A DNA stretch of 64,000 nucleotides from Opitutus sp. ER46 (lineage in GTDB: Bacteria; Verrucomicrobiota; Verrucomicrobiia; Opitutales; Opitutaceae): contig NZ_QAYX01000024.1 in the NCBI RefSeq assembly GCF_003054705.1, positions 310,001-374,000 on the forward strand. The letters run 5' to 3'. The notes beneath the pieces are model-generated. The model was not told the origin of the DNA. It saw only the letters and a list, made by a program, of their open reading frames with translations, and ran no database searches. This document shows, piece after piece, positions 1,500 to 16,819 of the stretch (position 1 is the first letter of the stretch; each line of letters begins with the position of its first letter). A program made the position numbers and the translations under genes.

Positions 1500-2720
1500 T
1501 CAGGGGAGCGGGGACGCTGGCGCGGGGGCCGTGCTTTCGGCGACCAGCCGGGCGGCCGCGACGGGCTCGCCGGGCAATGTCAGCGCACCGGGGAGTCGGG
1601 TGAAGGCGGCGCTGGCACCGTTCCGACGAAAGAGCCCCAGACGGCGGAAACCGGTTTCGGCCACGACGAGGTGCAGGCCATCGCTCAAGAAGACTGCGAA
1701 CTGCGGTCCGCCGTCGACGGCCAGCTGCTGCGCGGGCTCGTACCCCGCCGCGTTCCGCCGCAGCAGATGCACGCGGCCGGCCTGCCCGAACCGAGCATCG
1801 TGTTCGTCCGTGACCCCGAACCCGTGCATGCAGCTCGCGGCGATCCACTCGCCGTCGGGACTGAGGTCCAATCCTTCCGGCACTCGGTCCACCGTGATTC
1901 GTTGGCGCACGCGCAGCGCCTCGCGATCGAGGTCGACGAACACGATCTCGTTCGAGCCGATGTGCGCCACCGCCGCGCCGCGGCCGCCCGGCAGGTAGCG
2001 AATCACGTAGGGGCCGCGGCCGAGCGACGCCCGGTGCAACACGGTCGGCCGCGCGTCTGCATCGAGCGCCAGCAGCACCACGGCGTCGCTCTGGTTGAGC
2101 GAGGCCAACGCGTGCCGCCCATCCGGAGCCACTTCGACGTGGGCGACGATCTCCTCTGCGCGGGCAATGGAAACGCGCGCCGACTCCCGCACCCCTGCTG
2201 CGCTCAGCTCTAGGACGGAGAGCGTGCCGTCGCCGCGGTTCGCCACGAGGGCATGCCGACCATCGGGGTGCAGTCCGATGCTCGCCGGCTGCAACCCGAG
2301 CTCGAGCGTCTGCTGCACCGCTGGGACCTCGCCGCGCCACCGGACCAAGGTGAGCGCGCGATCCGGCAGAAAAGCGGCGGGAACATCGCCGCCCACCCGG
2401 CTGGAACCCGCGACCAGCGCAACGGGCTGCCCGGGGACGGCGGCGAGCGAGGTCGGCGGTCCGATGTAGCTCAGCGCTACCGGCAGGGCCCAAGTCAGCT
2501 GCAACCTGCTGTCCACGACCCCGACGCGAGCGACCCGGCCGGGCCCGCCGGCGCGGGGCTGCGCTTTGCCCGCCACGTAGGTGATCGACGTGTCCATTCC
2601 CACGAGCAGTGACGAATCCGCCGCCGCGCCCGAGGCCGCTGCGAGCGCCGCACCCCAGGCGCAGGCGGCGACCGCCAGGGCGGCGGCGCGACGTTGAAGA
2701 GCGATCGGCCGGGTCAACAC
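1500..2720 (-). CDS. Secreted seven-bladed beta-propeller protein (lactonase/YncE-like)
   Basis: With a GTG start at 2720, 7 bp after the aldolase stop, the 406-residue product begins with a basic stretch and an Ala-rich hydrophobic segment ending near residue 35, a signal peptide. The mature part shows repeated blade motifs such as 'IGLHPDGRHALVANRGDGT', 'VEVAPDGRHALASLNQSD' and 'LDLSPDGEWIAASCMHG', as in YncE and 6-phosphogluconolactonase-type propellers. No catalytic residue can be assigned. As last gene of the operon it probably acts in the periplasm on, or binds, the operon's substrate; a lactonase role is possible but inferred. The frame continues to 2870 inside the aldolase gene, which I reject as coding. 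Confidence 0.75.
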   Translation of the reverse strand: MLTRPIALQRRAAALAVAACAWGAALAAASGAAADSSLLVGMDTSITYVAGKAQPRAGGPGRVARVGVVDSRLQLTWALPVALSYIGPPTSLAAVPGQPVALVAGSSRVGGDVPAAFLPDRALTLVRWRGEVPAVQQTLELGLQPASIGLHPDGRHALVANRGDGTLSVLELSAAGVRESARVSIARAEEIVAHVEVAPDGRHALASLNQSDAVVLLALDADARPTVLHRASLGRGPYVIRYLPGGRGAAVAHIGSNEIVFVDLDREALRVRQRITVDRVPEGLDLSPDGEWIAASCMHGFGVTDEHDARFGQAGRVHLLRRNAAGYEPAQQLAVDGGPQFAVFLSDGLHLVVAETGFRRLGLFRRNGASAAFTRLPGALTLPGEPVAAARLVAESTAPAPASPLP

Positions 2721-2727
2721 GACGTGG

Positions 2728-3516
2728 TCAGCGTTTCGACGCCGGCACCGCGGTTTCGCGCAGCGGAGTCGCGCGGTTGAGGATCGCCTGGAAACGGCCG
2801 CGGAGCGCGCCGACATCGGAATCGATGCCAAAGTGAGTGAAACCCTGGGCGCGGAGATTGGGCAGGTCATCGAGGTTGCGCACGAGAATGCCGGCGGGCT
2901 TGCCCACGCGCCGGGCGGCGGCGGTCACGACCCCGAGACAGTCCTCGAAGCTGGGCGCCCCAGGATCGCGCCGTGCGCGTAGGTCGAACCCCAGGTCCGC
3001 CGGTCCGACGAAGACCATGTCGACGCCGTCCACGGACGCGATCGGCTCGGCGTTGCGCACGGCCTGCAGCGTCTCGATCTGGGCGATGAACACCGGCTCG
3101 GGCAGCGCGGCGTCGTCGCGCGGCGCGCGCAGGCCGTAGCCGTACACGCGGCCGGAGCGCGAGAAGCCGCGGCGCCCGCGGGGCGGGTAGCGCATGGCTT
3201 CGACGCACGCGGCGGCTTCCGGCGCGGACTCGATGTGCGGCACCATCACGCCCTCCGCGCCCCAGTCGAGCACGCGCAGGATCAGTTCCGGATGGGGCGC
3301 GCCCACGCGCACGATCGGGATCGTGCCCGAACCGCGCACGGCCTGCAGATTGTTCAGCAGCGTGGCGTCCGAACCACAGCCGTGCTCGAGGTCGAACAGC
3401 ACCCAGTCGAAGCCGCATTCCGCGGCGAGCTCGGCGATGACCGGCGAACCGATCGAGAGCCATGTGCCGACGGAGGGCTGCTGCCCGCGGAGGCGTTGAG
3501 GAGAGGAGGTGATCAT
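2728..3516 (-). CDS. HpcH/HpaI-family class II aldolase
   Basis: Metal-dependent pyruvate aldolase of the HpcH/HpaI (2-keto-3-deoxy acid) family, 262 residues, full length. Visible motifs: 'FDLEHG' with the catalytic His at residue 45, 'PIVRVG' with the pyruvate-binding Arg70, 'PHIESAPEA', 'QIET' with metal ligand Glu148, and 'VFVGPADL' with metal ligand Asp174. Members cleave 2-keto-3-deoxy sugar acids or 4-hydroxy-2-oxo acids to pyruvate and an aldehyde. The start overlaps the kinase stop by 4 bp (3513-3516), so the two are translationally coupled. Together with a kinase and a BASS-type anion symporter this suggests cytoplasmic breakdown of an imported sugar acid; the exact substrate cannot be read from sequence. 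Confidence 0.88.
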   Translation of the reverse strand: MITSSPQRLRGQQPSVGTWLSIGSPVIAELAAECGFDWVLFDLEHGCGSDATLLNNLQAVRGSGTIPIVRVGAPHPELILRVLDWGAEGVMVPHIESAPEAAACVEAMRYPPRGRRGFSRSGRVYGYGLRAPRDDAALPEPVFIAQIETLQAVRNAEPIASVDGVDMVFVGPADLGFDLRARRDPGAPSFEDCLGVVTAAARRVGKPAGILVRNLDDLPNLRAQGFTHFGIDSDVGALRGRFQAILNRATPLRETAVPASKR

Positions 3517-4610
3517 AGCGTGGTGGGATCCCGGGAATCACGGAGGCCGGCGAGCGCGGTGCGGATGCGGGAAAGCGTAAACTGCTTCAGGTCCCCACCG
3601 GTTCCGCCCGGACCCACCAGGAAGAAGTTGCTGCCGAGGTCAAAGTAGCCGGCGCCGACGCGAATGACGGCCTTCATGACCATGTTGCGCAGCAGGTGTA
3701 GCCAGAAGCGCGGGCAATAGTCCGACGGCAGCGGCCGCACACTCGCGTAACCTGCGAACGTGGCGCTGAGCGTCGGCCCGTCGTGAAAACAGCCGAGCAG
3801 CGACAGGTCATCCATCGGGTCGCCTGCAATGCAGTCGTCCCAGTCGATCACCGAGACGACGTCGGTCGTCGTTCCGAGCACGTTCCACAGCGCGAGATCC
3901 TTGTGCACGAGGCAGCCCGAGGGCAGGTCCAGCAGGGCGCGGCGGTCGTTGATCTCGCTGCGGATGGCGGTCGCCTCGTCGCTCGACAGAAAATCGCGGC
4001 CGACGAGGAACATGAGATGCCGGTCGAGATGCAGCGTGAAATAGTCCGCGTAGCGTGCGTGATGTCCGAGCAGCTGACCGCTCGTGGCCACGACATCGCT
4101 GCGGAACGGACCGAAGCCCGCGGGCGTGATTGCCTGCCAGCGCGCCACCGCCGCGCCGATCTGCCGCGCGGTGCGCTCGAGGTCGAGCTGCCCCGCCTTG
4201 TACCAGTGGTTCAGGTCCGGGTGCGGCACCCGCTCGAGCACCTGCCAGGCAAAGGGCTCGGTGCCGCGGCTCGCGTCCAGTCCGTACACTTCCGGCGTGA
4301 GCACACCTACCTCGCGCACGAGCCGGAGTACGTGGCTCTCGACGAGAAAGTAGTCGTCCCGCTCCGGGCCATCCTCGACGCGGATGAAGCTGTCGCGCCC
4401 GCCGAGCGTCGCGCGAAACGTGGCGTGATTACCCTGGCCGCCGGCGGGACGCAAATCCTGGGCCGGCGCGCCGAAATAGCGCTGGAGGGCGGCGGCGAGG
4501 CCCGGCTGCAGGTCGGGACGCTCCCGCGTGGCGGTGTCCTGGCCGACGCTGTGCAGCGCCGCCGGGCGGTCGCATTTCCAATAGTAGATCTGGCTGCGGG
4601 GAGAGGGCAT
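3513..4610 (-). CDS. APH/choline-kinase-fold phosphotransferase (small-molecule kinase)
   Basis: A 365-residue member of the phosphotransferase enzyme family (APH fold) with the Brenner motif 'LVHKDLALWNVL' (catalytic Asp238, Asn243) and the metal-binding 'VIDWDD' (Asp256). A nucleotide-loop region 'GGQGNHATFRA' lies near residues 57-67. These kinases phosphorylate hydroxyl groups of small molecules such as amino sugars, hydroxylysine, homoserine or methylthioribose. Position between a transporter (6-bp gap) and an aldolase (4-bp overlap) argues for a catabolic sugar or sugar-acid kinase rather than an antibiotic-resistance enzyme. Substrate unknown. Confidence 0.82.
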   Translation of the reverse strand: MPSPRSQIYYWKCDRPAALHSVGQDTATRERPDLQPGLAAALQRYFGAPAQDLRPAGGQGNHATFRATLGGRDSFIRVEDGPERDDYFLVESHVLRLVREVGVLTPEVYGLDASRGTEPFAWQVLERVPHPDLNHWYKAGQLDLERTARQIGAAVARWQAITPAGFGPFRSDVVATSGQLLGHHARYADYFTLHLDRHLMFLVGRDFLSSDEATAIRSEINDRRALLDLPSGCLVHKDLALWNVLGTTTDVVSVIDWDDCIAGDPMDDLSLLGCFHDGPTLSATFAGYASVRPLPSDYCPRFWLHLLRNMVMKAVIRVGAGYFDLGSNFFLVGPGGTGGDLKQFTLSRIRTALAGLRDSRDPTTL

Positions 4611-4616
4611 GGCGGA

Positions 4617-5921
4617 TCAGCGCGTGGCGTTCGTGTCGACGTCTTCATTCCCGGTCGGCCGCTGCCGCCACCAGGTGGCGAGGGCGGAGCCAGTCACGTT
4701 TTGCAGGGCGCCGAAGATGGCGGGCGCGAGCCCAAGCGTGGCGACCTGGCCCATTTGCATCGCGATGCCGGAGGCGAGGCCGCCGTTTTGCTGGCCGATC
4801 TCGATCGCGATCGTGCGGCAGGAGCGTTCGTCCATCCGGAAGAGCCGGGCGGTCCAGTAGCCCAAGGTGTAGCCACCGATATTGTGGCAGAGGCAGGCGA
4901 CGAGGAGCCACAGACCGATGGTGAGGAGATTATCGCGGCCGGCGGCGGTGATGATGGTCAGGATTACGCCGAGGCCGGTCATCGAGAACAGGGCCATAAC
5001 GCTGGAGATCTTCTGCTTGTTGCCGTCGAGCAGGTGCCCGAGCACGGCACCGGCGAGCAGCGGCAGGACGAGTGCGAGGCCCAGCAGCGAGGCGATCGTC
5101 ACGGGGTCAATCGGCTTGCCCCGCGCGAGCGTGAGCACGACCTGCACGAGAATCAGCACGCCGGCGAAGATGCCAGTCTGCTGAAGTCCGGCGCGGCGAA
5201 AACCCTGGCCGGAGCTGGCGAGGTGGAACGTGATGCCGGCCATGATCGGGTAGATCACGATCTTGATGATCTCCGCCATCATGCCCCAGAAATCGACCGG
5301 CACCATCTGGCCGGCGAGGGTCTTCATCCAGAACGGCATCAGCACCGGCGCGACCAGGGTGGCGCAGGCGGTGAGGGTGACGGACAGCGCCAGGTTCGCC
5401 TTGGCGAGGAAGCACATGACGTTCGACGCCATGCCGCACGGGGCGCACCCAATCAGGATCACGCCCGCCGCGATTTCCGGCGTGGCCAGGGGGAACAGCC
5501 GGGCGAGCGAGTAGCCCAGCAGCGGCATGATGACGAAATGGGCGGTGAGCCCGATCACGACCATGCGCGGCATGCGGAGGACGCCCTCGAAATCCTTCAG
5601 CCCCATCTGGGAGCCGACCGTGAACATGATGCCCTGCAGCAGCGGCACAATGAGGGTTTTGAGCTCGAGACTGCCCACCCGCTGGAACGGCCACGGGAAG
5701 AACAGCGCCATCGCGACGAGCGTCATCATCACCATCGTGTACGTGGCGCCGCGGAAGCGCTCGGTGCGATAGCACAGCAGCGCCGAGGCGAGGAAGAACG
5801 CCATCGTCGCGCCGCCGGCGAGCGGCACGGCGCGAGCCAGCCCGGCGCCGACGGCGAGCAGCCCGGCGGCCGTGGCCACCAGCGCAAGAGGTTTCGTGAT
5901 CCGGGATGAAGCAGACGTCAT
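4617..5921 (-). CDS. Bile acid:sodium symporter (BASS) family transporter
   Basis: A 434-residue inner-membrane protein with about ten hydrophobic segments. It matches the BASS/SBF fold: 'VGSQMGLKDF' early, the crossover-type 'GCAPCGMASNVM' near residue 160, and the second crossover 'EIGQQNGGLASGIAMQ' near residue 378. Family members couple Na+ to uptake of organic anions (bile acids, pyruvate, pantothenate, glucosinolates). Its 5' end overlaps the propeller hydrolase stop by 4 bp (5918-5921) and the kinase follows after 6 bp, so it sits within the operon. I infer import of a carboxylated breakdown product released in the periplasm. No isolated porter of another family lies in the operon. Confidence 0.88.
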   Translation of the reverse strand: MTSASSRITKPLALVATAAGLLAVGAGLARAVPLAGGATMAFFLASALLCYRTERFRGATYTMVMMTLVAMALFFPWPFQRVGSLELKTLIVPLLQGIMFTVGSQMGLKDFEGVLRMPRMVVIGLTAHFVIMPLLGYSLARLFPLATPEIAAGVILIGCAPCGMASNVMCFLAKANLALSVTLTACATLVAPVLMPFWMKTLAGQMVPVDFWGMMAEIIKIVIYPIMAGITFHLASSGQGFRRAGLQQTGIFAGVLILVQVVLTLARGKPIDPVTIASLLGLALVLPLLAGAVLGHLLDGNKQKISSVMALFSMTGLGVILTIITAAGRDNLLTIGLWLLVACLCHNIGGYTLGYWTARLFRMDERSCRTIAIEIGQQNGGLASGIAMQMGQVATLGLAPAIFGALQNVTGSALATWWRQRPTGNEDVDTNATR

Positions 5922-7633
5922 GGGGAAAGGGATACCGGAGGGCGCGCCGCGGCGGCGGCGGCATCGGCGGCCGCCCCTTCACGGTCGGTCGCACCCGCAA
6001 AACCGGGCCCGCCGGCGGCCACGTAGCCGTAGCTCGCGCCGCTGCGATCGGGGCTCACCCAGAAGGCGTACAGGCGGCCCTGCGTGAGATGAAAACGGAA
6101 GCGGACCGGCCGGTCGCGCAGCGCGGCGAGGGTCTCCGCCTGGCGCCAGCGGACTTCGCGGCGCGTCGTATCCGCGGAGACCGGCACGCATTCCGCCGCG
6201 CCGAACGGCGCGATCACGTTACCCTCGGGATCGAGCACTTCCACACGCAGCGCGCCCTGCGGACAGGCGACGTTCACAAAGAGCCGCTCGCCGGCAAAGC
6301 GCACCGGCCGCGTCGTGAGACTGCCGCCCTCGGCGCCGGTGTCCATGGAGGCAAAACCGTCCCGCCGGAGTCGGGCGAGGCCGATGCTCGCGCCGGTGTA
6401 CATGCCGCGCCAGCCCGAGGGCGCGACGCCGGAGAAGCCGGTGTACGGGAAATAGAGCCAGTCGCCGACCACGACGCACACGCCGGTGGGGCAGTGCAGG
6501 TAGCCGCGGTTCCACGCGCCCTCGCGCCGGCTCGCGCGCAGGAAGGGCTCGCGGTTGGGCCGGTCCCAATGAAAGCCGTCGCGGCTGAAGCCGAGCTTCA
6601 GCTCGGTGATCTTGGGGAAACGTCCCGCCTCGCAGACCTCGTTGGTGGGGCCGAGGTGGATCGAGAACACGCCGAGGATGAGGCTCTCGTAGGCGATGCC
6701 CTGCAGGTTGTAGAGCTGGGGCGCGGCGCCCACCTGCGGGTCGGGCGAATCGAGGCGGTCCGCGTTGGTCCAGTACACGGACTGGCGATACACGCCCGCG
6801 GTCATGAACGTCCGCGACTCGGCGTAGTGCCGCTCCCGGCCGCGCGGGCCGTTGCGCTTGATGCTGTGCACCCAGACCTGGCGAAACGGGTTGTAGAAGA
6901 ACGTGCAGTAGTCGGCCGCGGGTCCGGTCTGGACTCCCGCCGACCAGGTGAGGCCGTCGGCCGACACGTGAAGCGAGTGATCTTTTGAAGAACGCTGGGT
7001 CAGAAATTTGTAGCGCTCCGCCGCTGGCGCCTGCAGGTCCAGCCACACCCCGTTGTCCCAGCCGGCGCGACCTTTGCCTTCCGGCAGGACGAGATTGTCG
7101 CCGGCGCGCCCGAGTGCGGGCCGCTCCCAGTGAATGGCGTCACGGCTGGTCGCGAGTGCGAGGCCGCCGCGCCAGCCGGCGGTGTACCACAGCTTGAACT
7201 GCTGCGCGGCGGGGTCGAACCAGACGCCGCCCGAGCCGAGGTAGCACACCGCTTCCTGCGCGCCCTCGATCCCGGTGGTGCGCGTGAGTTCCGGCGGGGT
7301 CGTCGCGGCGAGGATCGGGTTGCCGGGGACTTCCTCCGCGGCGTGCCACGTGCGGCGCAGTGTCGAGTTTGCGATGAGATAGTCGTCGACGAAGAGCTGC
7401 CGCCCCACGTCGATCGGGATTACGGCCGGCGGCGCGACCAGATAGGGCACCGGCATGGGCTCGCGCGATTTCGCGTCCAACGTGCGCTCCGGCCACACCG
7501 GCGGCAGCACGATGCCGTTCGGCAGCACTTCGCCCTGCCGCGGCTCCGCGGCGGCACCGTCACTGGCCAGCGCGCAGGCGGCGCAAGCCGCGACGACGCC
7601 GGCGAAGCGGGAAGAGGCGAGTGACGTGATCAT
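5918..7633 (-). CDS. Secreted GH43/GH32-like beta-propeller hydrolase-type protein
   Basis: 571 residues with a signal peptide (residues 1-29, ending AAA). Then come propeller-like repeats with aromatic/Asp motifs resembling GH43/GH32 domains: 'GGVWFDPAAQQFKLWYTAG', 'WDNGVWLDL', 'FFYNPFRQVWVHSIKR', 'LGFSRDGFHWDRP' and 'YLYFPYTGF'-like blades. A C-terminal beta-rich domain (about 430-545) resembles GH32 jelly rolls. Such proteins are usually annotated as glycosyl hydrolase family 32-like. Catalytic acids cannot be assigned with confidence. It follows the TonB receptor by 37 bp and overlaps the symporter gene by 4 bp. Likely periplasmic processing of an imported oligosaccharide or glycoside. 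Confidence 0.72.
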   Translation of the reverse strand: MITSLASSRFAGVVAACAACALASDGAAAEPRQGEVLPNGIVLPPVWPERTLDAKSREPMPVPYLVAPPAVIPIDVGRQLFVDDYLIANSTLRRTWHAAEEVPGNPILAATTPPELTRTTGIEGAQEAVCYLGSGGVWFDPAAQQFKLWYTAGWRGGLALATSRDAIHWERPALGRAGDNLVLPEGKGRAGWDNGVWLDLQAPAAERYKFLTQRSSKDHSLHVSADGLTWSAGVQTGPAADYCTFFYNPFRQVWVHSIKRNGPRGRERHYAESRTFMTAGVYRQSVYWTNADRLDSPDPQVGAAPQLYNLQGIAYESLILGVFSIHLGPTNEVCEAGRFPKITELKLGFSRDGFHWDRPNREPFLRASRREGAWNRGYLHCPTGVCVVVGDWLYFPYTGFSGVAPSGWRGMYTGASIGLARLRRDGFASMDTGAEGGSLTTRPVRFAGERLFVNVACPQGALRVEVLDPEGNVIAPFGAAECVPVSADTTRREVRWRQAETLAALRDRPVRFRFHLTQGRLYAFWVSPDRSGASYGYVAAGGPGFAGATDREGAAADAAAAAARPPVSLSP

Positions 7634-7670
7634 GCCGACGAATGGCGCGGGGCGGTGTGGCGGGCAACGG

Positions 7671-10016
7671 CTAGAAACGCAGCTCGTAACGTCCGAAGTA
7701 CGCCCGTTCGTCGTTCTTGCGGCCCGAGGCGGACCACCATTCGCGGTTGGCGAGGTTCTTCACGCTGAAACCAACGATGTGACGGTAGCGGCCCGTCTCG
7801 AACCGATAGGTGATGAAGGCGTCGTAGATCGTGGCCGAGGGGCGGATCTCCTCGATGCGGTTCGTCGGGCCGTAGTTCAGGCGCAGCTGGTTGGTGACAG
7901 CGCCTGTGCCGGTGACCTCGGAGCCCGCGGTACCGTAGCGCGCGACGTAGTCGTCGGTGTAGCGGGCAGACCCGCCGAGCTTCAGCCCGTGGAGCGGGCC
8001 GTCCTTGAACTGGTAGGTGAGCGAGAGGCTGCCGGTGCGCCGCGGCGTGCGCAGCAGGACGACGCCTTCCTTGGCGACGTCGGTCGGGCACTTGACCGTG
8101 CGGGCATCGAGGTAGCCGCCGGTGGCGGTGAGCGAGAGCGATTCCGTGACATCGGCGAACACCTCGACCTCGCCGCCACGGGCGCGCTCACGGCCGGAGC
8201 CGACGTACTGCGGGACGCCGGTGTTGAAGTCGTCCTCGTCGGCGTAGAGCGGGTTCAGCTGGGGGATGTCCTTGCGGATGATTTCGTAGGCGGACGCGGT
8301 CCAGAAGAGGCGGCCGGCGAGGAGCTCGCCCTTGAAGCCGCCCTCCATGCCTTCGGCCGTGATGCTGTCCTGGAGCTTGCCGGTGCCGCGGTCCCGCGTG
8401 AGCTGAGGCGTGAAGGAGGTGCTTTGGTTGGCGAAGGCGACGAGTTGATCGCCGAGCAGCCGGTAATTGGCGCCCACGCTGTAGCTCGACTGGCCGACAC
8501 GCTTGCTGCCCGAGGCGGCGGGATCGATGAGGTCGACGTTGTCGACCGCCATGCGGTCGTAGCGATACGAGGCGAACAGCAGCGCGCGCCGGCCGATGGC
8601 CATGCGCTCCGAGACGAGCGCGCCGAGCAGCGTGCGGTCCATGGTGTTGTGCTCAACCTGGCGGGTAAGGAGGCTGCGGTCGTAGCCGGAGAAGTCGGGG
8701 GCGGCGACGCTGAGGGTCTTGAGGCTGGCGGGCAGGGCGTTGCGGTCGGCGGTGGACATCTTCCACGACCAGTCTTCCGAGCCGTAGTCCGAGCCATCGA
8801 TGGTCATCAGCAGCTTGTTCGCGGTGGGACCGAGCTTGAACGTCGCGAGCAGGTCGACCTGGCCCTGCAGGGTGCTGACCTGGGCCTCACCGTGGATCGG
8901 GTCGCGGCTGTTGAAGTTGCCGGACGAGACGGAGTAGTTGGCCACCGAGCTCGTGGAGGAGGTGGTGGTCCAGGACCACGAGTCGTACGGCCGCTCCCAC
9001 CACTGGAAGTTGGCGCGGAGGCTGAGGAACGAGTTGATCCGGTGCTCGGCGCGAAGGTCGACGGTGGTGACGTCGCGCTGCTGCACGAAGTCGCGGCCCA
9101 GCGGATTGAACCCGGCGCGTTCGAGACCCTCGGCGATGCCGCCGGTGACAGTCTGACCTGACTTGCCGGAGACCGGGCTGACCCAGGACGAGGCGTACAC
9201 CTTCGTGATGCCCGGTTGGCCGCGATTCATTGTCCGGCGGAGGCGCTCGACCTCGAGGGTGAACGTGGTGGCCTTCGACGGCTGGTAGGTCACGGCGCCG
9301 CTCGCGGCGAAGGTCTTGTTATAGAAGAATTGCTGGAGCCCCTTCGTGTCCGTGTAGGTGGCGTCGAGGCGGGAGAAGAGCTTCTTGGCCACGAGCGGCT
9401 GCGTCACGTGGGCCTCGTAGCGCTGGTAATCATACGAGCCGAATGTGGTCTTGAAGCGCGCCGTGGGTTTTCGGAAGGGACGCTGCGTCACATAATTCAC
9501 AATCCCGCCCGGCTCGGTCAGGCCGAAGGTGGCGGCGAGCGGGCCCTTGATGAACTCGACGCGCTCGAGGTTTACGACCTCGGCGATGCCGATGCGTTGA
9601 AAACCGTTGCGGAAGAACTGGGGCTGGAAGCCGCGGAACGAGACGTACCCGCCGGTGCCACTCTGGCGCTCGCCCGCGAGGTTGCCGCCGGCGATGAACG
9701 AAAGCTGGTCGTCGATTTCTTCCAGCATGAAGTTGTCGACGAACTCGCGGGGCAGCACGGCGACCGCCACGGGTGATTCGATCAGGCGCGTGTTGATACG
9801 CAGGGCGCCGACGGTCTCGTCGGTCTTCGCGTTCTCGACCGTGGCGGCGCCGCGGACGTGGAACTCATCGAGCACGTACACCTGCTCGGGGGTGGCATTG
9901 GCGCTGGCGTCGGACTTGGCTTGGGCCGCGGCGGCCTGGGCGGAGGAAGTCGCGGGCAGGGCGGCGGTGGCCGCGAGCACGCCGGCGATCCGGACGAGAC
10001 AAGGGAAGGGCTTCAT
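7671..10016 (-). CDS. TonB-dependent outer-membrane receptor
   Basis: 781 residues from the ATG at 10016: signal peptide 'MKPFPCLVRIAGVL...' cut after an Ala-Gln-rich stretch, an N-terminal segment 'VYVLDEFHV' in TonB-box position, then the plug with 'NLERVEFIKGPLAATFG' and 'PGGIVNYVTQRP', and a 22-strand barrel ending in 'YELRF', the terminal Phe of outer-membrane barrels. It resembles the siderophore/saccharide type without a carboxypeptidase-like N-terminal domain. The frame extends upstream to 11216 but that part is antisense-frame noise inside the sialidase-like gene. A 17-bp palindrome lies 68 bp before the start, probably an operator. It likely imports the operon's substrate across the outer membrane. 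Confidence 0.92.
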   Translation of the reverse strand: MKPFPCLVRIAGVLAATAALPATSSAQAAAAQAKSDASANATPEQVYVLDEFHVRGAATVENAKTDETVGALRINTRLIESPVAVAVLPREFVDNFMLEEIDDQLSFIAGGNLAGERQSGTGGYVSFRGFQPQFFRNGFQRIGIAEVVNLERVEFIKGPLAATFGLTEPGGIVNYVTQRPFRKPTARFKTTFGSYDYQRYEAHVTQPLVAKKLFSRLDATYTDTKGLQQFFYNKTFAASGAVTYQPSKATTFTLEVERLRRTMNRGQPGITKVYASSWVSPVSGKSGQTVTGGIAEGLERAGFNPLGRDFVQQRDVTTVDLRAEHRINSFLSLRANFQWWERPYDSWSWTTTSSTSSVANYSVSSGNFNSRDPIHGEAQVSTLQGQVDLLATFKLGPTANKLLMTIDGSDYGSEDWSWKMSTADRNALPASLKTLSVAAPDFSGYDRSLLTRQVEHNTMDRTLLGALVSERMAIGRRALLFASYRYDRMAVDNVDLIDPAASGSKRVGQSSYSVGANYRLLGDQLVAFANQSTSFTPQLTRDRGTGKLQDSITAEGMEGGFKGELLAGRLFWTASAYEIIRKDIPQLNPLYADEDDFNTGVPQYVGSGRERARGGEVEVFADVTESLSLTATGGYLDARTVKCPTDVAKEGVVLLRTPRRTGSLSLTYQFKDGPLHGLKLGGSARYTDDYVARYGTAGSEVTGTGAVTNQLRLNYGPTNRIEEIRPSATIYDAFITYRFETGRYRHIVGFSVKNLANREWWSASGRKNDERAYFGRYELRF

Positions 10017-10083
10017 GGCTTTGGGGGACGGGTTTGCCTGGCGGCCCGACGCTGCGAAACGAGGCGGCGGGGAAAAGGGTGCC

Positions 10084-10100
10084 GTAACGAAAGTCGTTAC
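10084..10100. promoter_or_regulatory. Candidate LacI-family operator upstream of the TonB receptor
   Basis: GTAACGAAAGTCGTTAC is a 17-bp palindrome (six-base arms GTAACG/CGTTAC) in the 107-bp gap between the sialidase-like gene and the TonB receptor. A sequence identical at 14 of 17 positions lies directly before lacI at 11444-11460. Size, symmetry and placement fit a LacI-family operator. Confidence 0.7.
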
Positions 10101-10123
10101 GTGAATCCGGCGCGGTGCGCCCG

Positions 10124-11389
10124 CTATTCGAGGGCGGCGAGCGGTACGCGGGAGAGCGCGATCTCCTCCTTGTTGACGGAGTAGAGAATGAAGAGCGCGC
10201 CGTCGTGCACCAGGGCGCTCGGATAGGAGAACCCGATGCCGCGGCCGGTGATGCCTGCCCAGCGGTGTTTGCCCGGAGCGCCGGCGCGAAGCGCGAAGAC
10301 GCGGTCGAAGGTTTCGCCGTCGGGGCTGAGCGCGAGCGTCAGGGGGTCGCGGCGAAGATGCTGAGCTTGGTCGAATCGGGTCGCGATCTGATTGCCCACG
10401 AGGACGACGCGCCCGTCCGGCAGCCGCAGGGCCTGCGCGCGACTCGGTGCGTCGGGGATGTTCGTCGGTTGTGGGATCGACCAGCCGCCCTCGGCCGTGG
10501 GAAAGGAGACGTACAGCCGGTTTCGCTGGCGCGGCTTGGTGTCCGCGCCCTGCGCCGAACGGAGGCAGAGCACCGGCCCGTGGACGCTGCGGTAGCTGAA
10601 GGGCTCCATCAGGGCGGCGCCATCGCTGGCGCGCGCGGGCACGCCCTCGCCGGCGACGTGCGACCACCAGCTCACGAGGTCGTGATCGACGTAGTACTGC
10701 CGGATCGCCGCGGCCTCCGCGGGCGCGACGGCGAGGTCCGGGGCGAAGCGCGGCCGGAGCGCGCCGGCGGGGAGCGGACGCAGGAGGAACACGGGGCCGA
10801 GCCGGCCGTCGGGTTCGACCCGCCGGGCCACCGGGTACACGGGGGTGCCGTGGACGTAGGTGACGGCGTACAGACCCGCCGGCGTGGCGACCCAGCGGTC
10901 GGGCTTCAGCGCGAGACCCTCCTCGCCGGCGCGGCGATACGGTCCGGGCGCGGCAAAGAGTTCGCGCGGAGTCGTCCAGCGTCGCCCGTCTGCGGATACG
11001 GCGAACAGGACCCGCTGCCCGGGCGCGTCCTCGCCCAGCGGGTGGTTGGCCCAGAGGGCATAGAACTGCCCGGCGTGGTGGATGAGGGCGGCGTAGTGGT
11101 TGTAGCCGCCTTCGTCGCGGCGCGCCGGGCGCCACACCGTCACGTGTTCGGCACTGCGCACGAGTGGCCAGGTGGCGGGCGCGGGTGGGTTGCCCGGCGG
11201 CAGGGGCGCGGTCCATCGCGGGACAACCGGGATGCCGTCGGCGGTGAATTGCCGGGTAGTGACGGTGCGGTCGCCGAGCGTGAGGGTGACGGCGGCGGGC
11301 GCGGCGGCGCGGAGCGGGGCCGGTGAAAGCACGAGCGCGGCGATGAACACGAGCGCGACCGCGCGGAGAAGGGGGCGAAACGGGACCAT
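10124..11389 (-). CDS. Secreted BNR/sialidase-like beta-propeller protein, first gene of the operon
   Basis: 421 residues from the ATG at 11389, starting with a signal peptide ('MVPFRPLLRAVALVFIAAL'). It shows sialidase-fold repeats: 'GQRVLFAVSADGRRWTTP' (S-x-D-G-x-x-W Asp box), 'LTLALSPDGETFDR' and a final 'GIGFSYPSALVHDGALFILYSVNKEEI' blade typical of BNR-repeat exo-sialidase-like proteins. The Arg triad of true sialidases cannot be verified. The frame remains open to 11548, across the intergenic region and into lacI, which I reject. Divergent from lacI with 76 bp between, so it is probably repressed by it. Likely a periplasmic glycan-binding or hydrolytic protein; calling it a sialidase would overstate the evidence. 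Confidence 0.75.
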   Translation of the reverse strand: MVPFRPLLRAVALVFIAALVLSPAPLRAAAPAAVTLTLGDRTVTTRQFTADGIPVVPRWTAPLPPGNPPAPATWPLVRSAEHVTVWRPARRDEGGYNHYAALIHHAGQFYALWANHPLGEDAPGQRVLFAVSADGRRWTTPRELFAAPGPYRRAGEEGLALKPDRWVATPAGLYAVTYVHGTPVYPVARRVEPDGRLGPVFLLRPLPAGALRPRFAPDLAVAPAEAAAIRQYYVDHDLVSWWSHVAGEGVPARASDGAALMEPFSYRSVHGPVLCLRSAQGADTKPRQRNRLYVSFPTAEGGWSIPQPTNIPDAPSRAQALRLPDGRVVLVGNQIATRFDQAQHLRRDPLTLALSPDGETFDRVFALRAGAPGKHRWAGITGRGIGFSYPSALVHDGALFILYSVNKEEIALSRVPLAALE

Positions 11390-11443
11390 GGGTGGTGACG
11401 TTCGCCCGATCAGGAAGATATCGGCCTTGAGCTGAAGTCGCGC

Positions 11444-11460
11444 GTGCCGACTATCGTTAC
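11444..11460. promoter_or_regulatory. Candidate LacI-family operator in the lacI/operon divergent region
   Basis: On the minus strand this reads GTAACGATAGTCGGCAC, matching the perfect palindrome at 10084-10100 in 14 of 17 positions. It ends 5 bp before the lacI start codon and lies 55 bp from the first operon gene, a position from which one bound repressor could control both the operon and lacI itself. Confidence 0.65.
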
Positions 11461-11465
11461 GCGTC

Positions 11466-12518
11466 ATGGCTTCACCAGTCAGCATGCGCGATGTCGCCCG
11501 CGCGACGCGGGTATCGGTCGCGACCGTCTCCAAGAGCCTCGGCAACAAGCGGGACGTGTCGGCGACGACCCGGCGTCGGGTGCTGGCGGCGTGTCAGCGC
11601 CTGGGCTACCGGACGAATCCGCTGGTCGCGGCCCTGATGCGGAGCCGGCGCAGCCACGCGTCGCCGACAAGCAGCCTGACGCTCGCGTTTGTGACCGCGT
11701 TTCCGACGCCGGACGGGTGGCGAACGCATCCGGCGCCGATCTTCCGGCAGATGTTCGCGGGCGCCCAGGCCCGGGCGCAGGAGCGCAACTATCGGCTGGA
11801 GCACCACTGGCTCTTCCGCGAGGGCATGAGCAACCGCCGGTTCAGCGACATGCTCGAGGCGCGTGGCATCCGCGGGGTGCTCTTCGCTCCGGTTCCAAAT
11901 CTGCAGACTGAGATCGAGCTCAACTGGCCGGCGTTCTCCACGGTCGTCCTGGGGCTCACTCCATCGACGCGGCATTTCCACCGCGTGACGACCGACTACT
12001 ATCAGTCGATGCTGCTGGTGATGGAGAAGTGTCGGCAGTGCGGCTACCGCCGGCCGGGCCTGGCGGCGCGCCGCGAGACGGCGACGCGGTTGGAGCACCG
12101 CTGGGAGGCCGCGTATCGCGTGGCGGCGGCGGCGTATGGCGCGCGGGCGGCGTTACCGCGGCCATTGATCGTCGAGGAATGGGAGCGCGAGCGGGTGGCC
12201 GCGTGGCTCGACCGGGAGCGGCCGGACGTGGTGATCGGGCCGGTGCTGGGCAAGCTCGAGGAGACGATCGCGGCGGCGGGCAAGCGCGTGCCGGATGACA
12301 TTGGCCTGGTCGGTCTGCTCGTGCCGCGCGCCGGCGACCGGTTGAGCGGTGTGCTACAGGACGGCGAGATCATCGGGCGCACCGCAGCGGATCAGTTGAT
12401 CGCGCAGCTGGAGCGCAACGAGACCGGCATTCCCGAGCATCCGATCACCCACACGATGCTCGGACGCTGGAACGAAGGAGAGACGGTCAGGATCCTGCCC
12501 GCCGCCCGGCAGCGTTGA
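11466..12518 (+). CDS. LacI-family transcriptional regulator of the adjacent catabolic operon
   Basis: 350 residues. The N-terminal LacI helix-turn-helix reads 'SMRDVARATRVSVATVSKSL' (residues 6-25), followed by a hinge region and a periplasmic-binding-protein-like effector domain ('SLTLAFVTAFP' onwards, with 'RGIRGVLFAPV' and 'DDIGLVGLL'). The recognition helix 'SVATVSKSL' departs slightly from the usual 'SxxTVSRVL'. Divergently oriented from the seven-gene operon. A candidate operator abuts its start codon and a better palindrome lies within the operon, so autoregulation and repression of the operon are likely. The effector is presumably the sugar or sugar-acid handled by the operon. Confidence 0.9.
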   Translation: MASPVSMRDVARATRVSVATVSKSLGNKRDVSATTRRRVLAACQRLGYRTNPLVAALMRSRRSHASPTSSLTLAFVTAFPTPDGWRTHPAPIFRQMFAGAQARAQERNYRLEHHWLFREGMSNRRFSDMLEARGIRGVLFAPVPNLQTEIELNWPAFSTVVLGLTPSTRHFHRVTTDYYQSMLLVMEKCRQCGYRRPGLAARRETATRLEHRWEAAYRVAAAAYGARAALPRPLIVEEWERERVAAWLDRERPDVVIGPVLGKLEETIAAAGKRVPDDIGLVGLLVPRAGDRLSGVLQDGEIIGRTAADQLIAQLERNETGIPEHPITHTMLGRWNEGETVRILPAARQR

Positions 12519-12536: not shown

Positions 12537-12647
12537 GAGTATCCGGACATTATCGCCTGAGTATCCGGACATTATTCCGGAGTATCTGGACATTATTCCG
12601 TAAGTGACGAACTCCGGGGCGGTAATAATTGCAGCCCTCGTGCCCTC
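12537..12647 (+). repeat. Dispersed repeat, copy 2: three 21-22 bp direct repeats plus conserved tail
   Basis: Three tandem units begin GAGTATCYGGACATTAT (12537-12558, 12559-12579, 12580-12600), followed by TAAGT, 16 variable bases, GTAATAATTGCAGC (12622-12635) and CTCGTGCCCTC. It shares about 81 of 89 bases with 1206-1294, in the same orientation relative to the window, and starts 19 bp after the lacI stop. The unit length equals two helical turns. Confidence 0.75.
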
Positions 12648-12922: not shown

Positions 12923-13774
12923 TCAACTGAACCGCTTGAGGCGCGAGGCGACGTCGTCGCGGAGTCGGTCGAGGTAGCCGAGGGTGTACGCGGCGATGTC
13001 GAGCTTGGGATCGGCGATCAGGGGCGTGAGGTCCATGGCCCAGGTGATGCCCTTGAATTTATCGGTCGCGTGCGAGGTGTGGAACGTCGCGTGAGCGAGG
13101 CGGCGGCCGAGGGCCGCGAGATCGTAGCGTTTGCCGCCGGTCACTTGGGAATCGAAGACCTTCATCAACTCGCCCGCCAATTCCACATGGCGGCCGGCGT
13201 CGAGCGCGACCTTGTCGGCGTCGAGCAGCCAGTCGAGATCGCGCCAGACCTCGGCGCCGAGCACGCGTTTCGGCCGCTGGGCCGCCGGGAGCGAGCGGAT
13301 CGCCTCGAGGCAGCGCAGGAGCACCGCCACGTGCGTGTCGTGCTTGTCCGCCGGGTTGTGCAGGTAAACCACCTCGGGCGTGCAGCCGGCGAAGATCGCG
13401 CGCAGATCGGCGACGACGCCCGGATGCCCGGCGCGCTTCACGTCGGCGCTCGGGTGCGCGAGTTGGAGCTGGATCGCGTAGCGGCCCAGCTGGGCGGCCT
13501 TGCGCTGCTCCTCGCGGCGGACGTCCTGCATCTGCTCGTCGGTCAGGTGCGCGTACGGGCCGGTGCGGGGAGAACCGGCGCCGTTGGTGACCACCACGCC
13601 GCCGAACGCCTTGGCCGGCGCGCCGTCGAGGCAGTCGCAGATCCCGGCGTGGGCCAGGATCTCGATGTCGTCCTGATGCGCGGCCACGCAGAGGTGCGTG
13701 ACGCGGGCGAGGGCGGCGGTCGCGTCGCCACCAGTCGGAACGAAGACGTCAGCGCGAGGATGGGAGAATTTCAT
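12923..13774 (-). CDS. PIG-L/LmbE-family deacetylase
   Basis: 283 residues of the PIG-L (LmbE) zinc-dependent N-acetylglucosaminyl deacetylase family. The metal motif is 'AAHQDDIEI' (His33, Asp35, Asp36; usual AHPDD with Pro replaced by Gln). A second motif, 'HNPADKHDTH' near residue 136, supplies the downstream histidines, so the active site looks intact. No signal peptide, hence cytoplasmic. It follows the NagB-PIG-L fusion gene by 117 bp on the same strand. Members remove acetyl groups from N-acetylglucosamine-type substrates. Here it could provide the deacetylase activity that the neighbouring fusion protein appears to have lost; that link is inference. Confidence 0.85.
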   Translation of the reverse strand: MKFSHPRADVFVPTGGDATAALARVTHLCVAAHQDDIEILAHAGICDCLDGAPAKAFGGVVVTNGAGSPRTGPYAHLTDEQMQDVRREEQRKAAQLGRYAIQLQLAHPSADVKRAGHPGVVADLRAIFAGCTPEVVYLHNPADKHDTHVAVLLRCLEAIRSLPAAQRPKRVLGAEVWRDLDWLLDADKVALDAGRHVELAGELMKVFDSQVTGGKRYDLAALGRRLAHATFHTSHATDKFKGITWAMDLTPLIADPKLDIAAYTLGYLDRLRDDVASRLKRFS

Positions 13775-13891
13775 GGGCGAAACGAAAGGGAGAGACGGGT
13801 GCGGGCGTTCGTCAACGGCGGCACCGGCGGCGCGGCGCCACCGGTCAAGGTGGCGTCACGCGCAGGGCCGGCCGGCGGGCGTGCGTTGCGC

Positions 13892-15817
13892 TCAACGGGC
13901 GTCGTCGTGCCAGCGTTGGAACGCCTCGATCGCCTCGTACTCGGCGAGGCCGAGGGCGTCGTAGGTTTTGGCGAGCGAGCGGGCTGCGGCCTCGGCCTGC
14001 TGCCAGGCCTCGTGCAGGCCGGGTTCGAACACCGGCATCTGGCTGCGCTGGCTCTTGTGTTGGTAGACGGCCTGGATTTTCTGCGTGAGCTGCGCGGGGC
14101 TGAGCGGCACGGCCATGTCGATCTCGTGCGCGGCCCAGGCCTTGTCGGGCGTGCGGTAGAGCCACACGCGGCAATCCTGCCACCAGCCCTCGGTCTTGAC
14201 CTGCTGGATGGCGGAGCGAAGCACGTCGAAGCACATGCCGCTCACGCTGGCGGGGTCCTGGCCGGCGCCGGTGGCGAAGATCTGGTGCGGCTTCAGCTCG
14301 CGGAGGACGGCGGCAACCTGCGCGACATCGGCTTCGGTGGCGCGGAACTGGCGGTAGCGGCCGTTCTCGTAGAACGCGAGGTCGAGGAAGCGCTCGGTGC
14401 CGGAGGGCACCGCCGCATTGCGCAGCGCCGCGCGGGCCTCCCCACGGCGCAGCAGGCCCTTGAGGCGGCGCGTATCCGCGGTGTCCTGACCCTTGGCGGT
14501 GCTCTGCTTGGCGGCGATGGCGTCGCGCACGCGGCGGGCGGCGGTGGCGGCGCCTCCCGCCTGGCTGGTGGCAAATTCGAGGACGAGGTCGGCGGCAACC
14601 ATGGCCTCTTCGTCGGGCACCGCGAGGTTGCCGGACGTCAGGTACACGACGGTAACGCTGTGGCCCTGCTCGATGAGCCGGGTGAGCGTGCCGCCCATGC
14701 CGAGCATTTCGTCGGACGGCTCGGGCGAGAACACGACGACGCGTTTCGGGTGCGGCGAGGCGCGCTCGGGCCGGTGTGAGTCGTCGGCGTTCGGCTTGCC
14801 GCCGGGCCAGCCGGTGATCGTGTGCTGAATCTCGTTAAACGCGCGGATGTTCAGGTTGTACGCGGGGCCCTGCTCGGTGAGGAGGTCGGCCATGCCGTGT
14901 TCGCCGTAATGCTCGTCGAGGAGCTTGAGCACGGGCCGCTTGGCGGTGCTCGAAAGCCAGGCGATCGCGCGGCGGGCCAGCGGAGGCGTCCATTCCACCG
15001 GCGTGACGAGCCACGGATGCTTGATCCGGGTGAGCTCGGCGGCGGCGGCGGGATCGAGGAGGAAGCGGACGTCGGGGTGATCCTGGAGGAGCGTCGCGGG
15101 GATGGTCTCGTTGGGCCGGCCCTCGGTGGCCTGGGCGATCATGCGGGCCTTGGCCTCGCCCCAGGCGAGGAGGACGACCTTGCGCGCCTCGAGGATGGTG
15201 CCGACGCCCATCGTGATCGCGTAGCGCGGCACGTTGGCCTCGCCGAGGAAGTCGCGGGCGGCGTCGCGGCGGGTGAGGGAATCGAGGGTGACGAGGCGGG
15301 TGCGGGAGTCGCGGGCGGAGCCGGGCTCGTTGAAGCCGATGTGGCCGGTGCGGCCGATGCCGAGCACCTGCAGGTCGATGCCGCCGGCGGCCGCGATCTT
15401 CTGCTCGTAGGCGCGGCACCAGGCGAAGACTTCGCCGCGCGGCACGCGACCGTCGGGGACGTTGCTCTGGCTGGCGGGCAGGTCGATGTGGTTGAACAAC
15501 TGCTCGCGCATGAACCGCGAGTAGCTCTCGGGGTGCTCGGGCGTGAGGCCGTGGTACTCGTCGAGGTTGAACGTGATGACGTTCCGGAAGCTGAGGCCCT
15601 CCTCGCGGTGGAGGCGGATGAGCTCGCGATAGAGCGGCACCGGCGTGGAGCCCGTGGCGAGACCGAGGACGACGTTGCGGCCCTCGGCGGCGCGGGTGCG
15701 GATGAGAGTGGCAATCTCGGCGGCGAGGCCGCGGCAGGCCACGACGGCGGAGGGGTGCACCTCGGTGTAGATGCGTTCGCGTTGGCGGGCTTCGATGTTG
15801 GATTTCATCGCGGTCAT
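13892..15817 (-). CDS. nagB: NagB (glucosamine-6-phosphate deaminase) fused to a degenerate PIG-L domain
   Basis: 641 residues. Residues 20-285 form a NagB-type domain: 'GLATGSTPVPLYREL' phosphate loop, 'FNLDEYHGL' with catalytic Asp86, 'GIGRTGHIGFNEPGS' with His159 (Thr where E. coli NagB has Asp141). It converts glucosamine-6-P to fructose-6-P and ammonia. Residues 355-640 are a PIG-L domain as in the long NagB proteins of Bacteroidetes. In place of the HPDD zinc motif it has 'SPEPSDE' (364-370) and in place of DPHGTH it has 'DPASVS' (521-526), so the metal ligands are lost and the domain is probably inactive. Start: ATG at 15817, with an alternative ATG at 15808. Divergent from an AraC regulator 84 bp away. 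Confidence 0.88.
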   Translation of the reverse strand: MTAMKSNIEARQRERIYTEVHPSAVVACRGLAAEIATLIRTRAAEGRNVVLGLATGSTPVPLYRELIRLHREEGLSFRNVITFNLDEYHGLTPEHPESYSRFMREQLFNHIDLPASQSNVPDGRVPRGEVFAWCRAYEQKIAAAGGIDLQVLGIGRTGHIGFNEPGSARDSRTRLVTLDSLTRRDAARDFLGEANVPRYAITMGVGTILEARKVVLLAWGEAKARMIAQATEGRPNETIPATLLQDHPDVRFLLDPAAAAELTRIKHPWLVTPVEWTPPLARRAIAWLSSTAKRPVLKLLDEHYGEHGMADLLTEQGPAYNLNIRAFNEIQHTITGWPGGKPNADDSHRPERASPHPKRVVVFSPEPSDEMLGMGGTLTRLIEQGHSVTVVYLTSGNLAVPDEEAMVAADLVLEFATSQAGGAATAARRVRDAIAAKQSTAKGQDTADTRRLKGLLRRGEARAALRNAAVPSGTERFLDLAFYENGRYRQFRATEADVAQVAAVLRELKPHQIFATGAGQDPASVSGMCFDVLRSAIQQVKTEGWWQDCRVWLYRTPDKAWAAHEIDMAVPLSPAQLTQKIQAVYQHKSQRSQMPVFEPGLHEAWQQAEAAARSLAKTYDALGLAEYEAIEAFQRWHDDAR

Positions 15818-15901
15818 GGAGGTGGGCCGACGCGGGGGTCGGCAGGTTTACGCTTCCCATCATAGCCCTGCTCGGGCTGATTTTCGATAGCCGCACCGCC
15901 T

Positions 15902-16819
15902 ATGTTGTTAACAAAAGCGCCAGCCAAATCCGCCCGGGCCTTTGCGCTGCTTGCCGCCCGGGCGCGCCGCCTGCCGTCGCCGGAACATCCCCTCCATGGC
16001 CGTCGCCGCCTGCCTCCGCCGTTGCCGGAGAACATCATCTGTTTCCAGCGGCGCAACGCGGCCGAGTTGAACCGCCCAAGCCAGGGACGCGCGTTGCATC
16101 ACCGCCACGTGCTGATCGTGCCGCTGCAGGGCGCGGCGACCGTGTGCGTCGACGACTGCACGCATTCGCTGCATCCGGGCAAGGGCCTGGTCGTACTGCC
16201 CTACCAGTTTCACCACTACACGCGCACCTCGAACCGCCGGATCCTCTGGCTGTTCGTGACGTTCGAGTACGCGCAGGGCGTCACGCTCGAGCCGCTGCGC
16301 AACACCACGTTCAACGTCAGCGCCGCGATGGCCGACGAGCTGCGCGAACTGCTCAAGGACCAGCGCAGCCTGTCCGAGGGCGGCCTGCCGGAGCTCCGCC
16401 TCGCGCTGCTGCTGTCGCAGCTCACCCCGCCCCCGGCGCCGGGTGACGCCACGACGGGCGCCGGGTACGCCGAGAAGGTCATTGCGCTGAAGGTGAACAA
16501 CGAAATGCAACGCCGCCGGCCCCTGGCGCCAACCATCCGCGAACTCGCGAGCCAGCTCGGCATGAGCCAGAGCCACCTGCGCGCGCGTTTCGCGGCGTCC
16601 TGCGGCGTGAGCCTTGGCCGGCACATGCGGGGCCTGCGGCTGGAGCGCGCGTGCGGCCTGCTGCGCATGAGCTCGAAGCGCGTCTCGGAGATTGCAGAGC
16701 AGTGCGGCTACGGCTCGGTGTATAGCTTCAGTCGCGCGTTTCACGCCGCCTACGGCCTTTCGCCGCGGGCGTACCGGAACCAGATGGCCGACGCTGGTGC
16801 ACCGCGCGCCGAGGGCTAA
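15902..16819 (+). CDS. AraC-family transcriptional regulator
   Basis: 305 residues. An N-terminal cupin-like sensory domain ('HHRHVLIVPLQGAATVCVDD', 'HPGKGLVVLPYQFHHYT') is followed by two AraC helix-turn-helix motifs at the C-terminus: 'TIRELASQLGMSQSHLRARF' and 'RVSEIAEQCGYGSVYSFSRAF' ending 'GLSPRAYR'. It is divergent from the nagB fusion and upstream of a nucleoside hydrolase in the same direction, so either may be its target. The palindrome TTGTTAACAA (15905-15914) falls on its first codons; a site there could mediate autoregulation, or the true start may lie further downstream, although no ATG is available before the cupin. Confidence 0.87.
   Translation: MLLTKAPAKSARAFALLAARARRLPSPEHPLHGRRRLPPPLPENIICFQRRNAAELNRPSQGRALHHRHVLIVPLQGAATVCVDDCTHSLHPGKGLVVLPYQFHHYTRTSNRRILWLFVTFEYAQGVTLEPLRNTTFNVSAAMADELRELLKDQRSLSEGGLPELRLALLLSQLTPPPAPGDATTGAGYAEKVIALKVNNEMQRRRPLAPTIRELASQLGMSQSHLRARFAASCGVSLGRHMRGLRLERACGLLRMSSKRVSEIAEQCGYGSVYSFSRAFHAAYGLSPRAYRNQMADAGAPRAEG

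Follow-up and report, generated by a model that had tools for sequence, protein, structure and literature searches.

A conserved transporter, kinase and aldolase cluster in Opitutus sp. ER46 and its probable role in use of a glycan-bound ulosonic acid

The genome of Opitutus sp. ER46 (5.7 Mb in 25 contigs; assembly GCF_003054705.1) encodes a seven-gene operon for a TonB-dependent receptor, three propeller proteins, a BASS-family symporter, an APH-fold kinase and an HpaI-type aldolase. The operon lies in the 64,000-nucleotide stretch analysed here (the window; positions 310,001 to 374,000 of contig NZ_QAYX01000024.1). All seven genes are on the minus strand, and a LacI-family regulator gene is divergent from them, 76 bp from prop7. 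In transcription order, the spacings are 107, 37, -4, 6, -4 and 7 bp. The positions and the one-strand arrangement beside LacI, with 4 bp overlaps or gaps of 6-107 bp, agree with the initial annotation, which had counted two propeller proteins; three were found (prop1, prop5 and prop7). Start codons were chosen from sequence, and three open reading frames (ORFs) were shortened: those of prop1 (GTG start), the TonB receptor and prop7. The genes, in window coordinates, are as follows.

11466..12518, plus strand: LacI-family regulator, divergent from the operon (Pfam LacI 50.8 bits, Peripla_BP_3 33.6 bits)
10124..11389, minus strand: prop7, secreted sialidase-like propeller related to the BT_1020 N-terminal propeller, predicted exo-ulosonidase (BNR_2 54.3 bits; Beta-prop_BT_1020 33.5 bits, cut-off 27)
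7671..10016, minus strand: TonB-dependent receptor (Pfam barrel 95.1 bits, Plug 38 bits)
5918..7633, minus strand: prop5, five-bladed propeller of GH43/GH32/GH130 type with an extra beta domain, predicted accessory glycosidase (no Pfam or NCBIfam family)
4617..5921, minus strand: BASS-family (SBF) Na+-coupled anion symporter (SBF 129.4 bits)
3513..4610, minus strand: APH-fold kinase of the WKCDRPAA family (APH, PF01636, 66.6 bits, cut-off 23.2)
2728..3516, minus strand: HpaI-type class II pyruvate aldolase of a distinct subfamily (HpcH_HpaI, PF03328, 122.9 bits, cut-off 25)
1500..2720, minus strand: prop1, secreted seven-bladed lactonase-like propeller, accessory (Lactonase 32.4 bits)

Genes for the symporter, kinase and aldolase (hereafter the core) recur together in distant bacteria. 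A search for the kinase was positive in 18 of 286 genomes of the class, the ER46 genome included; its distribution is patchy. All 17 others encode an HpaI homologue on the kinase strand, no more than ~0.75 kb downstream of the kinase. The class sample had hinted that ER46 is the sole kinase-bearing genome of its family. This idea was rejected with a larger family sample, in which 12 of 200 genomes (again including ER46) were positive, as were 4 of 10 other genomes of the genus. From a wider scan of species genomes, the best 80 of 161 related stretches were used. Duplicates L026, L027 and L031 (the same as L059, L062 and L098) were dropped before counting, leaving 94 loci; the L032/L067 pair, with identical kinases, was kept. 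L160-L167 are contigs already present as other loci, and only L158 and L159 were newly added.

The aldolase gene occurs directly downstream of the kinase, at 800 bp or less, in 80 of 94 loci (75 of the 89 with room for it). A BASS gene is within 1.5 kb of the kinase in 67 of 94 loci, and both partners are present in 65. Fifty-four loci have 9 kb of sequence on either side; in these, we identified the aldolase in 45, BASS in 36, a sialidase-like BNR propeller in 38, prop5 in 27 and LacI in 12; one or other of the two propellers is present in 41, and aldolase, BASS and propeller occur together in 31. The initial annotation had named scattering of these genes in related genomes as the finding that would speak against a single pathway; they are clustered instead. 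Because there are only four HpcH_HpaI matches in the whole ER46 genome, yet the kinase-aldolase pair recurs in so many loci, this clustering is beyond chance.

The related loci are from Verrucomicrobia, Planctomycetes, Lentisphaerae, Kiritimatiellae, Bacteroidota (Runella, Larkinella, Spirosoma) and a few Proteobacteria, although some labels of metagenome-assembled genomes are doubtful. In the Bacteroidota loci L099 and L107, the gene run comprises just SusC, SusD, the BNR propeller, BASS, kinase and aldolase. Thus, these steps may suffice to enter central metabolism. The closest operons, L158 (genome G287) and L159 (G317), come from the same family as ER46, each in a near-complete genome, with identities to the window proteins of 64% for LacI, 45-46% for BASS, 56-57% for the kinase, 57-63% for the aldolase and 37-41% for prop1. 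L159 also has a TonB receptor (65%) next to the core, prop5 (66%), and an autotransporter gene between aldolase and prop1. Both encode the core BNR propeller, which is missing from the window operon; prop7 sits in its place.

Other genes were seen near the kinase in some loci. The lone kinases of L048, L050, L052 and L055 (Planctomycetota) follow apparent ParB or Soj/ParB genes, with no aldolase or BASS (neighbours named by eye). Apparent sugar ABC transporter genes, also named by eye, follow the kinase of L065 (11221-14716) where the aldolase would be. A regulator joining an FCD domain to an AraC-type helix-turn-helix is encoded near the kinase in L030 (15901-16671), where its domain content was checked; its cluster also has members in L031 (= L098), L033, L036, L037, L038, L076 and L103. 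A GH78-type rhamnosidase (80.5 bits) is encoded at L098 15262-17649, in the gene run of a fused BASS-kinase core.

A single protein of 671-713 residues comprises symporter and kinase in three loci: L023, L031 (= L098) and L043. Their grouping on the kinase tree, together with L042 (support 98/91), suggests one fusion event; the contig of L042 is truncated upstream. Many kinase ORFs looked long, but both parts share an ORF only in these three, and a widespread fusion was rejected. The fusion ties the kinase to the transported substrate. Like PanS and ASBT-type proteins, the window symporter belongs to the SBF family, with anionic substrates; unlike them, it has fused relatives, and its NCBIfam scores (bass 201 bits; PanS 187.8 of 400 bits) are both below the subfamily or equivalog cut-offs. 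The APH motifs HKD..N and IDWDD are conserved in 18 kinase sequences of 48-58% identity. No close solved relative of the kinase was found, the best match being a hygromycin kinase (E 9e-7).

The aldolase retains D42, E44, H45, R70, E148 and D174 in 83 of 83 sequences. We take H45 to be the catalytic histidine, R70 to bind pyruvate, and E148 and D174 to bind the metal, as in HpaI. The nearest solved aldolases are GarL (1dxe, E 6e-38) and HpaI. NCBIfam scores place the protein outside the GarL, HpaI and RhmA equivalogs (151.6 of 406.75, 160.9 of 368.8 and 109.1 of 441 bits, respectively).

Bacteroidota and Verrucomicrobiota copies of the core BNR propeller share 50-68% identity. A search of the PDB with the profile of this family gave 52 matches at E of 0.001 or lower, almost all of them to sequences named as sialidases (best E 8e-12). 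Residues E246, R262, R318 and Y347 correspond in the alignment to the Glu/Tyr pair of sialidases and to two of the triad arginines, and each occurs in 70 of 70 domains (57 loci); the third arginine expected of a GH33 sialidase is not evident. The E246-R262 spacing equals that of E218-R234 in Amuc_1547 (GH181), and R318 aligns opposite R305 (residues from excerpts of PMC10067855 and PMC12018670). GH181 enzymes carry Gln for the third arginine and His-Gln for the Tyr, whereas the core BNR family keeps the Tyr. The case for a complete triad was weakened, as the candidate R69 occurs in 62 of 70 domains and at a different motif spacing.

prop7 matched PDB entry 5mqr (E 2e-7), and its low-confidence structural model (predicted local distance difference test score, pLDDT, 61.0) has as best Foldseek match the same entry, 'Sialidase BT_1020'. 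Comparison with the core BNR family gave an hhalign E of 3e-5 and a probability of 73. In the alignment of prop7 relatives, E262, R347 and Y389 are invariant and R278 nearly so, corresponding to the Glu, Arg, Arg and Tyr of the BNR family; a profile search with this alignment mixes prop7 with other BNR rows and is not independent support for prop7. We take BT_1020 to be a GH142/GH143 protein whose N-terminal propeller is the GH143 domain. An excerpt of PMC7761036 describes GH143 as a hydrolase of Dha (3-deoxy-D-lyxo-hept-2-ulosaric acid). The comparisons suggest that prop7 is GH143-like, with Dha hydrolase activity as a prediction. Both Dha and Kdo (3-deoxy-D-manno-oct-2-ulosonic acid) are described in part of PMC12282258 as carried by chains C and D of the plant polysaccharide rhamnogalacturonan II (RG-II), chain C being Rha-Kdo.

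Relatives of prop7 were identified in 22 of 286 class genomes. Near them, G131 (two copies) and G164 encode DapA/NanA-superfamily proteins, all three below every equivalog cut-off, and sodium or GPH symporters are encoded in G164, G208 and G199. These DapA/NanA neighbours belong to another pyruvate-lyase family, again paired with a prop7-type propeller. E. coli NanA cleaves Kdo and KDN (2-keto-3-deoxy-D-glycero-D-galacto-nononic acid), as stated in part of PMC13220900. A cluster for PIG-L, a NagB-PIG-L fusion and an AraC-type regulator adjoins the prop7-type gene both in the window (12923-16819) and in G164 (L142 4125-9221); the NagB-PIG-L, PIG-L and AraC proteins of the two are 60%, 48% and 33% identical.

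prop5 had no Pfam or NCBIfam match. Thirty sequences align over the full length, 29 of them relatives 46-61% identical to the window protein. The model is good (pLDDT 88.9, predicted TM-score 0.87) and shows a five-bladed propeller, with fold matches to GH130, GH32, GH43 and GH62 enzymes and to BT_0996 (presumably GH137), as well as to a deacetylase (6n1a, Z 23.9). In 28 of 43 loci, prop5 shares an ORF with the BNR domain; thus, both likely act on one substrate. Copies of prop1, 37-41% identical, are present in L158 and L159; none was found in the other loci examined.

Family assignments and co-occurrence support the proposal of the initial annotation that the operon encodes one pathway, in which an anion would be taken up by BASS, phosphorylated and split by the aldolase to pyruvate. 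A single catabolic pathway for an acidic sugar is, in our view, very probable. The sialidase-like core propeller and the BT_1020-related prop7 both point to the freeing of a 2-keto-3-deoxy ulosonic acid, a member of the class split by pyruvate aldolases. We therefore consider it reasonably likely that the pathway acts on an acid of this kind and, with similar confidence, that the operon serves, under LacI control, to break down such an acid when glycan-bound. The carboxylated sugar of the initial annotation is thus retained as an acidic sugar and refined, in that the acid is probably released already as an ulosonic acid by the sialidase-like propeller rather than made from a uronic acid.

The substrate and cell location given for every step are predictions. 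The TonB receptor would import an oligosaccharide, and the sialidase-like propeller (prop7 here, the BNR propeller elsewhere) would cut the ketosidic bond to free the acid. The probable task of prop5 would be to trim a capping sugar, and that of prop1 may be the opening of a lactone or ring form. Uptake of the free acid with Na+ would then fall to the BASS symporter, after which the kinase would phosphorylate the acid and the aldolase would form pyruvate and an aldose phosphate. We lean towards this order, with the kinase acting before the aldolase. Kdo is our best single guess for the acid, and a tentative one. In that case, Kdo-8-phosphate would yield pyruvate and D-arabinose-5-phosphate, which a KpsF/KdsD isomerase could feed into the pentose phosphate pathway; an isomerase of this type is encoded in the ER46 genome (290 bits, cut-off 203.7). 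The minimal Bacteroidota versions imply products that enter central metabolism directly, which fits formation of arabinose-5-phosphate from Kdo-8-phosphate best. A more speculative possibility is a horizontally spread route for Kdo (or Dha) from plant RG-II, algal walls or lipopolysaccharide (LPS), in which BASS, physically coupled to the kinase, would trap the acid and the HpaI-type enzyme would reverse Kdo-8-phosphate synthesis, giving arabinose-5-phosphate and pyruvate.

Plant RG-II always contains Kdo and Dha, and Kdo is likewise a regular constituent of Gram-negative LPS. Large amounts must therefore be recycled. No dedicated route that uses Kdo or Dha as carbon, and no description of such an operon, was found in the open-licence literature searched. 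If the prediction is correct, the operon supplies a transporter, a kinase and an aldolase for this use and offers a marker for tracing the route in Verrucomicrobiota, Planctomycetota and Bacteroidota from soil and freshwater. It would also add a fusion of transporter and kinase.

The operon has features in common with several known systems. It resembles the nan clusters for sialic acid in combining an exo-sialidase-type propeller, a Na+- or H+-coupled acid transporter, a kinase and a pyruvate lyase. It differs in that these are a BASS protein, an APH-fold kinase and a class II HpaI-type aldolase, with no NanA, NanE or NanK among the seven genes. Bacteroides RG-II loci with BT_1020 (GH142/GH143) share a propeller related to prop7, which lacks the GH142 domain; to our knowledge, BASS, APH kinase and HpaI genes are not known from those loci. 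The garPLRK-type pathway for D-galactarate and glucarate has an aldolase of the same family (GarL), but the window aldolase is under the GarL cut-off and the operon has no reductase or dehydratase. In contrast to SusCD-type polysaccharide-utilization loci, no SusD is encoded among the window genes; it is present in the Runella version (L099).

Several findings weigh against our interpretation. No evident counterpart of the third sialidase arginine was seen in the BNR family, and sialidase-like propellers include enzymes that act on non-ulosonic substrates, such as the GH93 arabinanase, one of which is at rank 50 among the matches of the prop7 model. A DapA-family neighbour was seen in only two of the six prop7-relative genomes viewed (partly by eye). 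The KpsF/KdsD control matched in 14 of 14 genomes, above the cut-off in three, so that this widespread isomerase gives permissive support only. Fourteen of the 94 kinases lack an aldolase inside the 800 bp limit, although in L035 and L102 the gene lies somewhat beyond it, and the label of aldolase near or absent changes at least six times on the kinase tree. The kinase is alone in L048, L050, L052, L055, L068 and L105, including four Planctomycetota, and a related kinase in G288 carries an in-frame stop. The lone kinases are also what would be expected if two unrelated functions were clustered by chance. Given kinase-aldolase adjacency across several phyla and the gene fusions, we regard such clustering as highly improbable.

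Within a single pathway, the acid could instead be a nonulosonic acid (Kdn or sialic-acid type) or Dha, an alternative to which we assign a lesser but appreciable probability. Kdn-9-phosphate would give mannose-6-phosphate and pyruvate, and Dha pyruvate and a four-carbon aldehyde acid. The core propeller is indeed nearest to sialidases, and the GH143-like prop7 points to Dha, but Dha would offer the kinase no terminal hydroxymethyl group. For an N-acetylated acid, the amino-sugar (NagB/PIG-L) cluster is near the prop7 gene in both the window and G164, although it may be an unrelated neighbour, and no NanE, NanK or NagA was identified in the gene runs scanned, which cover part of the neighbours. 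It is also possible, though we doubt it, that cleavage precedes phosphorylation: the aldolase would take the unphosphorylated acid, as is the case for GarL and HpaI, and the kinase would act on the aldehyde or sugar product. The solved structures nearest to the aldolase accord with this order. Against it, the fusions join BASS to the kinase rather than kinase to aldolase, and some genomes keep the kinase without a nearby aldolase. Rather unlikely is a non-ulosonic substrate. In this case, what the propellers free would be a uronic or aldonic acid; kinase and aldolase, as non-classical enzymes, would form a route like that of 2-keto-3-deoxygluconate (KDG). The GH43/GH130-type fold of prop5 and the ability of some sialidase-fold enzymes to cut other bonds are consistent with it. 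So are the PfkB kinases near the core, which in L076 occur in one gene run with 2-keto-3-deoxy-6-phosphogluconate (KDPG) aldolase and in L092 directly follow prop5; these also count against our own reading. However, neither the window operon nor the gene run of Runella-type loci has the dehydratase, isomerase or oxidoreductase by which a uronic acid would be converted to a 2-keto-3-deoxy acid. The window operon also lacks the PfkB-type KDG kinase and KDPG aldolase of an Entner-Doudoroff-type route. The initial prediction of a path free of the classical KDG kinase therefore stands for this operon; given L076 and L092, it is not supported as a general rule.

LacI homologues 64-73% identical to the window protein adjoin the core in six other loci (L049, L058, L063, L066, L158 and L159). 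Two candidate operators were identified in the window.

11448..11461, minus strand: putative LacI operator CGTAACGATAGTCG, in the divergent gap between LacI and prop7 (motif also in the divergent regions of L049, L058 and L063)
10083..10101, no strand: second putative operator, palindrome CGTAACGACTTTCGTTACG, in the gap between prop7 and the TonB receptor (motif search)

The motif was picked after viewing the window, L049, L058 and L063; it was not seen in the divergent region of L066 and is absent from L158. In L049 and L061, a site resembling the second operator is present 118 bp ahead of the start of the receptor. Exact CGTAACGANNNTCG has four matches in the 5.7 Mb genome, three of which, at two sites, are inside this operon. 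The reversed control pattern has one match in the genome. A looser pattern was found in 13 of 148 loci, at promoter-like positions in L049 (two), L058, L061, L063 and L065, and without a clear link in L048, L055, L098, L107 and at a third L049 site.

The operon and LacI gene are bracketed by an intergenic repeat, ATAATGTCCRGATACTC, with units of 21-22 bp, at 1206-1243 and 12537-12596 of the window. The two flanking repeats have the same orientation and are 91% identical over 89 bp. The repeat is genome-specific, as no copy was found in 40 other genomes of the family, one of the same genus included, and 145 exact copies are present in ER46.

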